Shown here piece after piece: positions 10,339 to 16,048 of a DNA stretch of 43,814 nt. The stretch's first letter is position 1; each line of letters starts with the position of its first letter. The stretch is taken from NCBI RefSeq assembly GCF_900113545.1, contig NZ_FOPS01000014.1:1-43814 (forward strand). Reading direction: 5' to 3'. Under the pieces are notes generated by a model. That model searched no databases, was not told the DNA's origin, and was given only the letters and a program-made list of their open reading frames with translations. Source of the stretch: Neisseria elongata subsp. elongata (lineage in GTDB: Bacteria > Pseudomonadota > Gammaproteobacteria > Burkholderiales > Neisseriaceae). Position numbers and translations under genes: made by a program.

Positions 10339-11160
10339 ATGCCTTATATTCTTTTTCTATTTTGCCTATTATTATCAGTATGGTTAACTTATATCTGTGT
10401 GAAAAAATATTGTAAAAGCAGGCTGGCAAAATTTTTGGGCGTACCTATTTTATTCTTTCTGTTTCTTGGCTTGAATCCTGTTTACCATTTTGCAAGCAAA
10501 ACTCTGCGTCCGACGCATACAGCGGAGGAATTGATGATGGAAGATTCGGGAAATCAAATAATCTTCTTAATTTTCAAAGATAAGTTTCCACAGGATTATG
10601 CCCAAATTGTGGCGCAAACTGAAAAATTTATGAAGTCAAATAATTCTAAACAAGACTTAGATTTTTTTCTTTCAAATATAATTGATATTGCATTGAAAAA
10701 ACTGCCGTATGCGGATGATGACAGCTTAATTGCTGTGTTTCGGGAAGATATGCAGTTGCGCACCCAACTTCTTCACGAAAAGGATACGACAAATTGCTTT
10801 TATTTGGATTACCCGCATTTAGCTCCTGATGTTTTGCTTTTTTCAAAACAGATAAAGCCGTATCTTGTCCCTATTAAACAAGCCAGAGTACGTGCTTTGC
10901 AATCTGCCGATATTCATCGAAAAATGCCGGACGAAACTGAAATAGCGCAAACACAAGATAAAGTACATCAGATTTTACGGACGAAATATAGTGAACAGGA
11001 GTTGGCGTTAATCAATAACGACAATGAGGATGAAATAAAGCAATATACGGCTGAAGAGCAGGCTTTAATGTGCCGTTTTACAATCGATGCAATGCAGGCG
11101 ATGTTGGAACAGCCTAAGCATGAAGCTGCAGAACTGCTTCGTTTTAATTTGAGTCATTGA
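10339..11160 (+). CDS. Hypothetical membrane-anchored protein, 273 residues
   Basis: Two N-terminal hydrophobic helices (about residues 3-20 and 32-52, separated by the basic KKYCKSRLAK) anchor a soluble C-terminal domain of about 215 residues. That domain is helical and acidic, with TEKFMKSNNSKQDLDFFLSN and a closing AMLEQPKHEAAELLRFNLS. No family is recognised. AT-rich. GGGTGCAAT before ATG 10339 gives a weak ribosome site. It stands alone in the island between a region without genes and dispersed-repeat copy B. Confidence 0.7.
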   Translation: MPYILFLFCLLLSVWLTYICVKKYCKSRLAKFLGVPILFFLFLGLNPVYHFASKTLRPTHTAEELMMEDSGNQIIFLIFKDKFPQDYAQIVAQTEKFMKSNNSKQDLDFFLSNIIDIALKKLPYADDDSLIAVFREDMQLRTQLLHEKDTTNCFYLDYPHLAPDVLLFSKQIKPYLVPIKQARVRALQSADIHRKMPDETEIAQTQDKVHQILRTKYSEQELALINNDNEDEIKQYTAEEQALMCRFTIDAMQAMLEQPKHEAAELLRFNLSH

Positions 11161-11423
11161 GGAACGATCTGTTGGATATTTTCCCCAATAAATCTCTTAG
11201 GCTTAAAACAGATTACATTGATAGGTACATTAAAGCAGCCGTAGATTCGGTACTCGAATCTGACATTTTTGGTATTTTCAGACGACCTTTTTATACTGCT
11301 TCTGTATTTACACTTAAAGCCCGCGTGCGTGCCGCGCACACCCTGCCTGCAGGTTTAATGCGGGCTACGGCTTGCTATCGTGTGCCACTTGAAATAAACA
11401 ACGTAAATATGAGCGTGTGTTGT
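11161..11423. other. Intergenic stretch with hairpin, DUS variant and repeat
   Basis: Contains a perfect 6-bp stem-loop (GATTCG, loop GTACT, CGAATC; about 11245-11261), a minus-oriented DUS of the alternative dialect (TTCAGACGACCT, 11277-11288) and dispersed-repeat copy B. A TTG-initiated open frame crosses it but runs through the repeat, so it is not called. Confidence 0.5.
11313..11376 (+). repeat. Dispersed repeat, copy B
   Basis: Matches copy A closely across its length: CCGCGTGCGTGCCGCGCACA, CCCTGCCTGCAGG and GGGCTACGGCTTGCT. It again lies just downstream of a DUS-like TTCAGACGACCTTTTT. Confidence 0.75.
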
Positions 11424-11887
11424 TTAATGTGGATTGTTAGGGACTAATCTGATTCCTGCTGCTTCCAATCTAATTTCAGGCCTTCCTGTCATAAAATCCC
11501 AATCTTTGGGCATGGTGGATTTGAGTTTTAAATTGAAGTCCATAAACTTTGCTTCTTCTTTCGTAATATGTGCTACCTTCCAATTTTTCTGTAATGCATG
11601 CGCCAATTCTTCTTGTGTATATTTTTGTTCTTAATTAACTCTTCAAGCTTTTCAACTATATACGCACAAGGGACAACGTGCTCAATACGACCCTGAACAC
11701 CATCTAATAGTTTTTCTGATTTCCCTAAAGAAATAAAATACTCTTGTGGGTGTAATAAAGAATCGAATATTCGGCTATGATAACCTATTCGTATTCCTGT
11801 ACTCTTTTCATGTTCAACTAAATTTATAATATGACGAACCAGCAATAAACAAGTTTGAAAAATTAGCTTATTTTTTTCATCTAGCAT
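11424..11887 (-). pseudogene. Frameshifted gene of unknown function
   Basis: Reading leftward from ATG 11887, the first frame gives MLDEKNKLIFQTCLLLVRHI through GRIEHVVPCAYIVEKLEELIK and then turns to poor sequence. One base shift near 11630 restores a clearly coding-like frame: EQKYTQEELAHALQKNWKVA, then MDFNLKLKSTMPKDWDFMTG and RPEIRLEAAGIRLVPNNPH, ending at 11424. The intact product would be about 154 residues. The likely lesion is loss of one G where AAGGAACAAAAA would be expected. EHVVP faintly recalls His-metal nucleases, but this is not firm. Either a pseudogene or a sequencing error. Confidence 0.65.
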
Positions 11888-12157: not shown

Positions 12158-15100
12158 CTACTTTGCTATCACTCTTTCTTTCAAAGTCTTTACGACACTT
12201 TTCACCGTCTTAATCCGCGTCTCCACATCCTCCATCTGAGCCGTAAACTTCAGCTTATCCGCCCCAGCCAGCCGGTATTTTTTATCTGTTTGAATCAGCA
12301 GGATGATTTCTGTCGGGTCGATTTGGTGGTGTTTGCCGAAGGTAACGGTGACGGCTTCGCTGGTCGCGTCGATGGCGTCTATGCCCAATTCTTTTGCGGC
12401 GAGCCGCAGGTGGTGGCTTTCGATGAGGGTTTTGACGGGTTGTTCTGGCAGGCCGAAGCGGTCGACGAGTTCTTCGTGTATCGCGTTGATTTGCTGCACG
12501 GTTTCGCAGACGGCGAGGCGTTTGTAGAGGACGAGCCGTTCGTGGATGTCGGGGCAGTAGCTTTCGGGCAGCAGGGCGGGGCTGTGCAGTTTGATTTCGG
12601 TGGTGATGCCCAACGGTGCGTCGAGGTCGGGCTGGCGGCCTTTTTTGAGGTCGCGCACGGCTTGTTTGAGCATTTCGGTGTAGAGCGTGAAGCCGACCTG
12701 TATCATTTCGCCGGATTGCCCTTCGCCGAGGATTTCGCCTGCGCCGCGGATTTCCAAATCCTGCATGGCGAGGGTGAAACCTGCGCCGAGTTCGTCTGCT
12801 GCCGCAATGGCGTCGAGGCGTTTTTCTGCGTCTTTGGTGATGTATTCGGGCGTGAGCAGGTAGGCGTAGGCTTGGTGGTGGCTGCGGCCGACGCGCCCGC
12901 GAAGCTGGTGCAGTTGCGCCAGCCCGAATTTGTCGGCGCGGTTGATGATGATGGTGTTGGCGTTGGGGATGTCGATGCCGGTTTCGATGATGGTGGAACA
13001 GAGCAACACGTTGAATCGTTGCTGCAAAAAGTCGCGCATGACTTGTTCCAGCTCGCGCTCGCGCAGTTGTCCGTGCGCCACGCCGATGCGGGCTTCGGGC
13101 AGGAGGGTTTCCAGCCGCTCGCGCATGTTTTCGATGGTATCCACTTCATTGTGCAGGAAAAATACCTGCCCGCCGCGTTTGAGTTCGCGCAACACGGCTT
13201 CGCGCACGCTGCCTTCGCTGAAGGGTTTGACAAAAGTTTTGACGGCAAGGCGGCGGCTGGGCGCGGTGGTAATCAGCGAGAAGTCGCGCAGGCCTTCGAG
13301 CGCCATGCTGAGGGTGCGCGGAATCGGTGTGGCGGTCATGGTGAGGATATCGACATTGGCGCGCAGGCGTTTGAGCTGCTCTTTCTGGCGCACGCCGAAG
13401 CGGTGTTCTTCATCGATAATCACTAAACCTAAGTTTTTGAATTTGATGTCATCCTGCACCAATTTGTGCGTGCCGATAACGATATCGACCGTGCCGTCCG
13501 CCATGCCTTCCAGCGCGGCTTTGGTGGCTTTGCTGTTGTTGAAACGCGAAAGGCTGGCGACTTTCACAGGGAAATCGGCGAAGCGGTCGGCGAAGTTTTG
13601 CGCGTGCTGCTCGACCAAAAGCGTGGTCGGGGCGAGTACGGCGACCTGTTTGCCGCCCATCACCGCCACAAACGCGGCGCGCAGGGCGACTTCGGTTTTG
13701 CCGAAGCCGACATCGCCGCAAACAAGGCGGTCCATCGGCTTCGCCTGCGTTAGGTCTTTAATCACGGCGGCGATGGCGGCGGCCTGGTCTTCGGTTTCTT
13801 CATAGCCGAAGCCATCGGCAAACGCCTGATAGTCCAACTCGTTGATTTCAAACTTGTGTCCCGATTGGGCGGCGCGCTGGGCGTAGAGGTTGAGCAACTC
13901 TGCGGCGGTGTCGCGTGCTTTTTCGGCGGCTTTGCGTTTCGCCTTGTTCCACGCACCGCTGCCGAGCTTGTGCAGGGCGACGTTTTCATGCGCCTGGCCG
14001 GAGTAGCGGCTGATTAAATGCAGTTGCGAAACAGGTACATAAAGCTGCGCTTCGCCCGCGTATTCGAGCAACATCATTTCGTTGGTTTCGCCGCCCAAAT
14101 CCATCGTTACCAAGCCCATATACCGCCCGATGCCGTGTTCTTCGTGAACGACGGGGTCGCCGATGTTGATTTCGGCAAGGTCGCGTAACAGGCCGTCTGA
14201 AACGGCGGCGTGTTTCTTGCGGCGGTTGTGGACGCGCGAACGGGCGACGTATTGGTAGAGCTCGGATTCGGTGATGACGGCGATGGCACTTTGGTCGGCA
14301 ACCGCTTTGCCCTCTCCCCAACCCTCCCCCACGGGGGAGGGGGCAGGTTGCTGTCGGGTTTGCCCGTACAGACTACTTTCGACGGGGTACAGGCTGCTTT
14401 TGGTTTTTAGGTCGTCTGAAATGGCGGCTGCATTCTGTTCCCTCTCCTGTGGGAGAGGGTTTGTTGTGGCTGCGGAAAATTTGGTTTGGGTGGCAACCGC
14501 TTTGCCTTCTCCCCAACCCTCCCCCACGGGGGAGGGAGCAGGTTGCTGTCGGATTTGCCCATGCAGACTATTTTCGATGGGGGGTAGGCTGCTTTCAGTT
14601 TTCAGGTCGTCTGAAATGGCAGCGACATTCTGTTCCCTCTCCTGCGGGAGAGGGCTAGGGAGAGGGTTTGTTGCGGCTGCGGAAAATTTGGTTTGGTCGG
14701 TAACCGTTTTGCCTTCTCCCCAACCTTCTCCCTCGGAGTCGGGAGTAGGTTGCTGTTGGTTCGGAGATTGCAGCCCGCCCAGTTTGAATCCGTATGCCAA
14801 CGGCGCGACCGTAATCATCAGCGGCTCGTGTGCCGATAAAAAGCCCTGCCAGTCGGACACAGGTTTGGCCTTCAAACCGTTTTGCTGCAAGAAGCCGAGC
14901 ATGGTTTCGCGCCGTCCCAAACTTTCGGCGCACAGCAAAATCCGCCCGTCAAAGGTCGTCTGAAAATCCTTCAATGCCTGCAAAGGTTCGTCGGATTGGC
15001 GGTTGACGGCAAGGTCGGGCAGGATGTGTTCCTTGCCGGAAACATCGGGCAGCACTTGTCCGTAGTTTTTCAGACGACCTGCGAACACATCGGCAGAGAG

Positions 15101-16048
15101 ATACAAATGCTGTGGAAGCAAAGGCGGATAGGTTTCATCGCCCTGCGCCATGGCGTAACGCGATTTGACGTCGCTCCAAAAGCGGTTTGCCTCGGCGTGA
15201 ACGTCGCCCAATGAAACAAACAGCGCATCGTCACCGATATAGTCAAACAGCGTTTCCAGCTCGTTTTCAAAAAACAGCGGCAGGTAATATTCCACGCCCG
15301 CGCCGAAGTGGCCGTTGCTGACGGCTTTGTACACGGCGGCATCGTTCGGATTGCCATCGACTTCCTCGCGGAAGCGGCTGCGGAAGATTTTTTGTGCCTC
15401 GCTGTCGGTGGGGAACTCGTGCGCCGGCAGCAGGCGGATTTCGGAAACGGGGGAGATGGTGCGCTGTGTGTCGGTGTCAAAGGTTTTGATGCTGTCGATT
15501 TCATCGTCGAACAAATCGATGCGGTACGGCATTTCGCTGCCCATCGGGAATAAATCCACAATGCCGCCGCGCACGGCAAACTCGCCTGCCGCGACAACAT
15601 GGGAAACATGGTTGTAGCCCGCATCCACCAAATCGCTTTTCAGACGACCTATATCCAGAGTCTGCCCCGTTTTCAGCCAAAACGTGCGCCCCGCCAGAAA
15701 CGGCACGGGCGGCAGCTTCTGCATTGCCGTGGCAACCGGCACGAACAACACGTCCGCCGTGCCGCTTTTAATCTGCCACAACGCCGAGAGCCGCTCCGAC
15801 ACCAAATCCTGATGCGGCGAAAAACGCTCGTAAGGCAGCGTTTCCCAGTCCGGCAGGAACACCGCCGTATCGTGCGGGCGGAAAAAACGCCATGCAGTCT
15901 GAAGGCGCAATGCCTGTTCCGCATCTTGGGTCAGCACGACTTTGAGCCGCTTATGCGGCAGATAACGCGCCAAAGCCAGCGGCAGCGAGCCTTGCGAAAG
16001 ATTGAGCCAACGGGATTTTTCACGGGGTTTTGGGATAGGGTAGGTCAT
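12158..16048 (-). CDS. mfd: Transcription-repair coupling factor Mfd, with repeat insertion
   Basis: Mfd removes RNA polymerase stalled at DNA damage and recruits UvrA. Domain order is normal: UvrB-like N-terminal module (residues 1-340), D3, the RNA polymerase interaction domain (VVHEEHGIGRYMGLV), a RecG-like translocase (GDVGFGKTEVAL near 776, IIDEEHRFG near 877, TATPIPRTL) and the C-terminal TRCF domain. At 1296 residues it is well over the roughly 1150 of E. coli Mfd. The excess is residues of about 428-587, a Pro/Gly/Gln/Ser-rich tandem repeat placed in D3 between AYGFKLGGLQ and AIAVITESELYQY. Six DUS lie inside the gene, five of them AGGTCGTCTGAA. No frameshift is seen. A DUS hairpin ends the transcript. 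Confidence 0.96.
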   Translation of the reverse strand: MTYPIPKPREKSRWLNLSQGSLPLALARYLPHKRLKVVLTQDAEQALRLQTAWRFFRPHDTAVFLPDWETLPYERFSPHQDLVSERLSALWQIKSGTADVLFVPVATAMQKLPPVPFLAGRTFWLKTGQTLDIGRLKSDLVDAGYNHVSHVVAAGEFAVRGGIVDLFPMGSEMPYRIDLFDDEIDSIKTFDTDTQRTISPVSEIRLLPAHEFPTDSEAQKIFRSRFREEVDGNPNDAAVYKAVSNGHFGAGVEYYLPLFFENELETLFDYIGDDALFVSLGDVHAEANRFWSDVKSRYAMAQGDETYPPLLPQHLYLSADVFAGRLKNYGQVLPDVSGKEHILPDLAVNRQSDEPLQALKDFQTTFDGRILLCAESLGRRETMLGFLQQNGLKAKPVSDWQGFLSAHEPLMITVAPLAYGFKLGGLQSPNQQQPTPDSEGEGWGEGKTVTDQTKFSAAATNPLPSPLPQEREQNVAAISDDLKTESSLPPIENSLHGQIRQQPAPSPVGEGWGEGKAVATQTKFSAATTNPLPQEREQNAAAISDDLKTKSSLYPVESSLYGQTRQQPAPSPVGEGWGEGKAVADQSAIAVITESELYQYVARSRVHNRRKKHAAVSDGLLRDLAEINIGDPVVHEEHGIGRYMGLVTMDLGGETNEMMLLEYAGEAQLYVPVSQLHLISRYSGQAHENVALHKLGSGAWNKAKRKAAEKARDTAAELLNLYAQRAAQSGHKFEINELDYQAFADGFGYEETEDQAAAIAAVIKDLTQAKPMDRLVCGDVGFGKTEVALRAAFVAVMGGKQVAVLAPTTLLVEQHAQNFADRFADFPVKVASLSRFNNSKATKAALEGMADGTVDIVIGTHKLVQDDIKFKNLGLVIIDEEHRFGVRQKEQLKRLRANVDILTMTATPIPRTLSMALEGLRDFSLITTAPSRRLAVKTFVKPFSEGSVREAVLRELKRGGQVFFLHNEVDTIENMRERLETLLPEARIGVAHGQLRERELEQVMRDFLQQRFNVLLCSTIIETGIDIPNANTIIINRADKFGLAQLHQLRGRVGRSHHQAYAYLLTPEYITKDAEKRLDAIAAADELGAGFTLAMQDLEIRGAGEILGEGQSGEMIQVGFTLYTEMLKQAVRDLKKGRQPDLDAPLGITTEIKLHSPALLPESYCPDIHERLVLYKRLAVCETVQQINAIHEELVDRFGLPEQPVKTLIESHHLRLAAKELGIDAIDATSEAVTVTFGKHHQIDPTEIILLIQTDKKYRLAGADKLKFTAQMEDVETRIKTVKSVVKTLKERVIAK
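14291..14766. repeat. Tandem palindromic repeat array inside mfd
   Basis: Two full units (14291-14480 and 14481-14687) and a decayed third (14688-14766). Each full unit holds two GC-rich palindromes: CCCTCCCCCACGGGGGAGGG (14322-14341 and 14517-14536) and CCCTCTCCTGTGGGAGAGGG (14440-14459, with CCCTCTCCTGCGGGAGAGGG at 14635-14654). A DUS variant, AGGTCGTCTGAA, lies between the two palindromes of each unit. Unit 2 is longer partly through an extra 12 bases, four codons. The frame of mfd is kept throughout. Confidence 0.9.

Follow-up and report, generated by a model that had tools for sequence, protein, structure and literature searches.

Repeats in reading frames have previously been described gene by gene. 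Rickettsia palindromic elements (RPEs), as presented in PMC3733652, are palindromic repeats that lie in frame inside unrelated genes, and the same paper describes different REPs near the same recB site in two Xanthomonas species as well as REPs in O. terrae RNA helicase genes, that is, a permissive coding site struck by different REPs, with helicase and repair genes as hosts. GTAG-REPs and REPINs are tied to RAYT transposases (PMC2817692, PMC3116915, PMC3733652). PARCELs (PMC2996958) are also tandem palindromic coding repeats; by their description as a 25-residue amphipathic motif, many copies of which lie in membrane-targeted ORFs, they stand apart from the repeats considered here. The best reading of the Mfd insert analysed in this study is that it is a variant of kinds already known, REPs in ORFs and RPEs. 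The likeness to RPEs meant here is one of mode and, in contrast to RPEs, one site in Neisseria takes several repeat families and whole domains, with a varying number of units. The main text of PMC3733652 contains neither 'mfd' nor 'hrpA', and its sections on REPs report no whole-domain capture. Within the open-licence literature, searched by title and the start of the abstract, no paper on Neisseria Mfd or HrpA inserts appeared, a result that speaks for that literature and not for everything in print. What distinguishes the present analysis is that one loop is compared across 41 genomes.

The window, the whole 43,814-nt stretch of Neisseria elongata subsp. elongata DNA analysed here, carries mfd on its minus strand (12158-16048), identified from its open reading frame and from Pfam and NCBIfam matches as the gene of the 1296-residue transcription-repair coupling factor. 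The protein matches seven Pfam families, including MFD_D3 at residues 362-423, and scores 1003.6 bits against TIGR00580 (cut-off 800) and 1328.9 bits against NF007966, 0.1 under the cut-off of 1329. An earlier note made from the sequence had proposed an in-frame array of GC-rich palindromes at 14291-14766, adding about 160 residues at a D3 loop that is short in E. coli Mfd. The insert, its frame and its position all stand; its extent has to be corrected to residues 424-588 (14285-14779, minus strand), 165 residues in frame between ...AYGFKL and IAVITES..., as judged from the site table of 41 Neisseria Mfds, the alignment to insert-free Mfds with their 4-residue loops, and an AlphaFold2 model. 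E. coli Mfd aligns with the window's protein up to query residue 385 and again from 588. In the model (residues 330-715, 36 sequences, mean pLDDT 68), whose best Foldseek matches are solved Mfd chains, strands at residues 421-423 and 588-593 flank the insert.

Tandem Repeats Finder reports an imperfect tandem array at 14290-14756 with a period of 195, 2.3 copies and a score of 636, in agreement with the 2.4 units first proposed. Four intact palindromes with an 8-bp stem and a 4-nt loop lie at 14322-14341, 14440-14459, 14517-14536 and 14635-14654, compared with a mean of 0.05 and a maximum of 2 when the array was shuffled 200 times with dinucleotides preserved; in the other 3.4 kb of the gene there is no 8-bp palindrome of the array type. 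Two copies of the DUS-like 12-mer AGGTCGTCTGAA, at 14409-14420 and 14604-14615 (plus strand), bear out the suggestion that each unit holds two strong palindromes with a DUS between them. From low to high coordinates, the motifs are a type-B-like triplex motif with a stem of 9 and one mismatch (14310-14341, minus strand, read as SPVGEGWGEG), a palindrome B without its third arm (14440-14459, plus strand, 12 nt shorter than the other copy and read as NPLPQERE), a second type-B-like motif (14505-14536, minus strand) whose palindrome at 14517-14536 is intact although it fails the strict triplex test, a type-A-like triplex motif with a stem of 9 and one mismatch (14635-14666, plus strand, read as NPLPSPLPQERE), and a decayed copy of motif A, PTPDSEGEGWGEGK (14700-14750, minus strand). 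In coding order the array reads decayed A, linker, B, DUS spacer, A, linker, the arm-less B that is 12 nt shorter, DUS spacer, A. The four-codon difference between units that had been noticed earlier arises because one motif has lost an arm (NPLPSPLP versus NPLP), and the decay ascribed to the third unit is that of its motif A copy. Motifs A and B paired in inverted orientation across a 57-nt linker describe the module better than a 195-nt tandem period. As in a BIME, the palindromes are regularly spaced, with a 195-nt period, and the A and B motifs alternate in orientation. Searched against Rfam at the gathering threshold, the window gave no match, and a plasmid collection gave two matches, both of them chromosome-sized N. 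gonorrhoeae records filed as plasmids, the one inspected being without annotation at the site.

A sequence search linked these palindromes to what Holder and colleagues (PMC4666352) describe as the G/C-rich intrastrand triplex motif (TM, previously PIT). They fit this motif, the formation of a triplex itself being a prediction. Our strict test for a three-arm class II intrastrand triplex required a pyrimidine arm, a purine arm and a mirrored purine arm with short loops and at most one mismatch, and arms of 7-10 nt were tried; the search rule of PMC4666352 allows arms of 6-15 nt and loops of 1-6 nt. Two array motifs passed (14310-14341, minus strand, and 14635-14666, plus strand), each with a stem of 9, loops of 2 and 3 and one mismatch; no further motif in the 43.8-kb window did, the other array copies having a lost or altered arm. 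The two lie on opposite strands as an inverted pair, with second loops CTA and TTG compared with TTA for type A and CCG for type B in PMC4666352, and we call them A-like and B-like by analogy. The array motifs and those in Table 1 of that paper have the core CCCTCTCCC...GGGAGAGGG in common. The likeness therefore covers three arms of 9 nt, inverted pairs and two loop types. The difference is that the inverted type A and type B pairs of E. coli are exclusively intergenic ('always located intergenically'), whereas those described here are translated within mfd and hrpA and form tandem modules with DUS. By the count of the same paper, N. meningitidis has about 50 copies of the motif and N. gonorrhoeae about 100; it also associates the motif with genome instability. 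In the window's own genome the triplex pattern has 9 matches, against 3 for a backward control that is unclean, the motif being nearly mirror-symmetric; no conclusion is drawn from these counts.

Palindromes of this strength could in principle act as nucleic acids. Mfd acts on stalled RNA polymerase. HrpA, whose gene carries the same repeats, acts on collided ribosomes (PMC13159725), and it could be imagined that a stalling element in the gene of each rescue motor sets that gene's own expression. When seven stretches were folded as RNA and compared with shuffles, two were far more stable (z -4.4 and -3.7), which speaks for a roadblock. However, one of the remainder was moderate (z -1.9) and four were hardly, if at all, more stable than shuffles (z -0.07 to -1.15), relatives without any insert exist for Mfd, and PMC4666352 cites earlier work in which the motif had no promoter or terminator activity. 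We regard self-regulation by roadblocks as very improbable.

The loop was compared across the genus. The set comprised 45 Neisseria genomes, of which 41 entered the Mfd table (G009, G014, G021 and G065 being partial, unmatched or split). The site ranges from 4 to 273 residues, and at least four kinds of insert are seen in it directly. The loop has 4-5 residues in 16 genomes and 8-20 in seven. The array repeat family is present in seven (96, 96, 100, 101, 161, 165 and 239 residues), with one, two or three complete modules and part of another. GTAG-tagged REPs occupy the loop in ten (VGRILESD-type in seven, VGRAFMPD-type in three), and an intein-like HINT domain in one, G028. One of the genomes with a VGRILESD-type Mfd, G012, has an additional 80-residue domain there. 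N. polysaccharea (G065) also carries the array family in mfd, with the gene split at the array, and matches to a 206-nt unit occur in 28 of the 45 genomes. Outside this set, 73 of the 80 loci fetched from genome_contigs by similarity to Mfd have a 4-residue loop; the others are three Neisseria loci (L152, L153, L155), one with 7 residues (L202) and three that were mis-anchored (L186, L211, L217). In the alignment of 38 Neisseria Mfds (G013, G019 and G066 left out), no other long insert was seen away from the protein ends. The HINT domain of G028 starts at a Cys and ends in HN-Cys as inteins do, and it matches PT-HINT with 45.3 bits and the intein C-terminal region TIGR01443 with 28.9 bits, both above the cut-offs; judging from these features, protein splicing is possible.

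The insert is therefore not a fixed property of Neisseria Mfd, which was one of two findings that would have spoken against the earlier proposal of a mobile palindromic mini-element captured and duplicated inside Mfd: it is missing from many genomes, and its unit number varies. The other, a lack of copies elsewhere, is equally wrong. Copies occur in hrpA in the same frame, and the A-linker-B-DUS layout recurs in a tandem array that has short open frames only. In the Mfd-core tree of the same 38 genomes, which carries no support values, the array carriers do not form one clean clade: G006 and G018 group with insert-free relatives. Each GTAG type is likewise divided between two parts of the tree, and several gains, losses or transfers are needed to account for this. 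Two gonococcal records are identical at the Mfd site and thus give no sign of fast change in gonococci. When empty and filled Mfd alleles were compared by eye, neither a clean target site nor a target duplication was readable because the alleles differ at both edges.

These distributions also bear on two trivial origins. The array is tandem and of low complexity, as would be expected if it had grown from ordinary Mfd codons by slippage, but the 4-residue Mfd alleles contain no seed of the repeat, its palindromes and linker are also found in hrpA, and its layout recurs in the tandem array mentioned above, which together largely refute slippage. An assembly or sequencing artefact might be suspected from G065, where two contigs end at the array, yet several species have the array, in frame, in genomes assembled as a single contig, and the two gonococcal records carry it in identical form; we consider an artefact refuted.

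Other repeats in the loop are tagged with GTAG. Translated from its GTA onwards, the GTAG-REP GTAGGTCGGATTCTCGAATCCGAC encodes V-G-R-I-L-E-S-D; the partner in inverted orientation encodes S-D-T-S-I-R-P-T. Among inserts other than those of the array type, GTAG tagging is present at the nucleotide level at 10 of the 41 Mfd sites and 16 of the 41 HrpA sites, and these VGRILESD- and VGRAFMPD-type inserts, mostly inverted pairs, are GTAG-tagged REPs of the sort treated in PMC2817692, PMC3116915 and PMC3733652. GTAG-REPs occur in 33 of 45 genomes, where a reversed control pattern gave none. With at most one mismatch the window's own genome has seven, three of them within the hrpA insert and two flanking its sole detected Y1-transposase gene (L130, contig C12). 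The window's palindromes are unlike this family in having no GTAG at their 5' foot and in not lying beside RAYT transposases. In the Mfd insert, GTAG occurs at 14584 in a spacer and at 14745 on the 3' side of the decayed copy, where intact copies have GCAG, and CTAC occurs at 14373 in a spacer. A triplex-type motif was found within about 1.5 kb of a Y1 transposase at only one of 30 loci examined, two others having a single arm-like string. Of the proposed mobile element, the variable unit number and the copies elsewhere hold up, movement of this palindrome family is putative, and the link to a Y1 transposase failed. As a separate observation, mfd in G004, G015 and G022 has a Y1-type (RAYT-like) transposase gene no more than about 1.4 kb away.

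Going beyond the earlier note, a loop of HrpA and the loop of Mfd are each a hotspot, taking whole domains as well as several repeat families that are unrelated to one another. The HrpA table likewise has 41 rows of the 45 genomes (without G009, G013, G017 and G019), and the site spans 13 to 643 residues with no clean empty state, 13-108 residues being present in many genomes without the array module. The Mfd module itself occurs in hrpA in the same frame and on the same strand in nine of the 41 (G006, G008, G012, G018, G024, G026, G030, G033 and G065; L104-L111 and L114). By reading, single motifs of the array kind are present in HrpA of G002, G011 and G059, while HrpA of G007, G010, G025 and G062 has the string RERE without the repeat. 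Among the loci compared, matches to the 57-nt linker were confined to mfd and hrpA, apart from three weak ones with the HrpA version, which makes recombination as likely as transposition for movement between the two genes. One or two GNAT domains lie in the HrpA linker of six of the 41 genomes: the window's own genome G000 (two), G001, G008, G012 (two), G026 and G030, those of G012 and G030 being confirmed by Pfam and NCBIfam matches. In G000 (L232, G000:C16:33500-37500), the in-frame site is 460 residues long and combines GTAG-REP peptides with two GNAT acetyltransferase domains that differ from each other. Outside HrpA, a search of the 45 genomes for a donor of the GNATs gave nothing close, the only match being 43% identical (G005). 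Five genomes have an 80-residue domain in the HrpA linker, searched for with an 87-residue query identical to the G065 copy (100%); the two examples examined, from G012 and G030, had no match in Pfam or NCBIfam at E up to 0.01, and the domain in G012 Mfd is a relative with 48% identity.

Two further loci with array-type repeats were observed. An ABC transporter ORF in G020 (L265/L089) has an in-frame pair between its ATPase-like and membrane parts, so that, together with Mfd and HrpA, in-frame copies in unrelated genes justify the comparison with RPEs made from the sequence at the outset. At G008:C1:1614500-1618000 (L266), tandem units of about 315 nt have the layout motif A, linker, motif B, DUS, with short open frames.

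Repeats and captured domains differ in how they evolve. For the last 70 codons of the Mfd insert in seven genomes, dN/dS is 0.60 (bootstrap 95% interval 0.34-1.17) and for the first 50 codons 0.66, compared with 0.041 and 0.031 for 300 Mfd codons on each side; the insert evolves nearly neutrally. In HrpA, dN/dS is 0.23-0.30 for GNAT-1, 0.16 for GNAT-2 (one pair) and 0.17 for the 80-residue domain. Drift in the repeats thus contrasts with apparent maintenance of the captured domains. None of the 44 inserts that exceed 60 residues (31 in HrpA, 13 in Mfd) has a stop in the coding frame, which is a consistency and not an independent test because the frame taken as coding was the one that joins both anchors; another stop-free frame is absent in 31 of the 44 and present in 13, all of these in HrpA. 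The AlphaFold2 model gives the Mfd insert low confidence and no secondary structure, which is weak evidence for disorder because low confidence is also expected where aligned sequence is missing.

The insert might instead be a functional part of Mfd, kept for a changed activity such as a tuned or mutator Mfd, in line with a speculation in PMC3733652. That paper reports REPs in numerous genes for replication and repair, its authors doubting a chance explanation, and the point estimate of dN/dS for the insert is below 1. Its interval, however, includes neutrality, close relatives have only 4 residues at the position, unrelated sequences fill the same loop in different species, and AlphaFold2 predicts no structure for it. 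A function of this kind seems to us unlikely.

The loop is also rich in uptake sequences, which have been placed in permissive regions of core genes by a genome study (PMC2397512). The DUS core CGTCTGAA occurs at 4.66 per kb at the Mfd site (30 in 6,435 nt; 40 genomes, G013 left out) compared with 1.28 per kb in the surrounding sequence (162 in 126,461 nt), a 3.6-fold difference. At the HrpA site, the density is 6.09 per kb (110 in 18,069 nt, 41 genomes) compared with 0.86 per kb in the flanks (16 in 18,630 nt, 10 genomes), a 7-fold difference. At least one core is present in 19 of 40 genomes at the Mfd site and in 39 of 41 at the HrpA site, and in G002 the four residues of the Mfd loop, PSEN, are themselves a DUS (CCGTCTGAAAAC).

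The window's own mfd appears to come from another species. Its neighbour clpA is at most 82% identical to that of any of the 44 other Neisseria genomes in near-full-length matches (partial matches in the fragmented G009 reach 93%, and G021 has no match). The best clpA match is G012, where mfd and clpA are adjacent as in the window. Outside the array and the gene ends, by contrast, 300-nt blocks of the window's mfd share 94-99% identity with mfd of G030, G024 and G008, and 69-91% with that of G012. The simplest reading of these identities is that mfd, repeats included, was probably replaced by DNA from another species. The duplication of the unit, which the earlier note had placed inside this Mfd, need not have occurred in the window's lineage because the allele with the repeats seems imported. 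The stretch 10900-11500 is 95-99% identical to the DNA beside mfd in G008, unlike clpA on the other side, and may mark the extent of the imported DNA.

Taken together, we think it likely that a permissive, DUS-rich turn in D3 of Mfd serves as a landing site for palindromic elements, of which the survivors are those in frame and free of stops, and that the resident repeats then recombine. Short palindromic elements would insert there, GTAG-REPs probably by means of RAYT transposases and triplex-motif pairs by some other route or by recombination, and only insertions that keep the frame and bring no in-frame stop would survive. The resident repeats and DUS copies could then provide homology by which units are gained or lost, mfd and hrpA exchange sequence, and longer DNA, for example GNAT genes, is captured. 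Transformation guided by DUS would spread whole alleles between species, and is the probable source of the window's mfd. A broader idea, which we put forward only tentatively, is that repeat- and DUS-rich linkers of housekeeping helicases in Neisseria are in-frame landing pads, where palindromes create a docking site that is translated, and genes (GNAT, the 80-residue domain, HINT) are then imported into HrpA and Mfd as the repeats recombine.

The site lengths in Mfd and HrpA mean that motors for repair and rescue, although conserved, vary strongly between Neisseria species. One Mfd loop displays different repeat families, change in unit number and near-neutral evolution, and in HrpA the array repeats adjoin captured domains whose dN/dS of 0.16-0.30 suggests maintenance. 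Because of this variation in the Mfd loop and the captured domains in HrpA, the path from an intergenic repeat to a protein domain becomes traceable. If the landing-pad idea is true, such linkers would be a natural route to new multidomain proteins.
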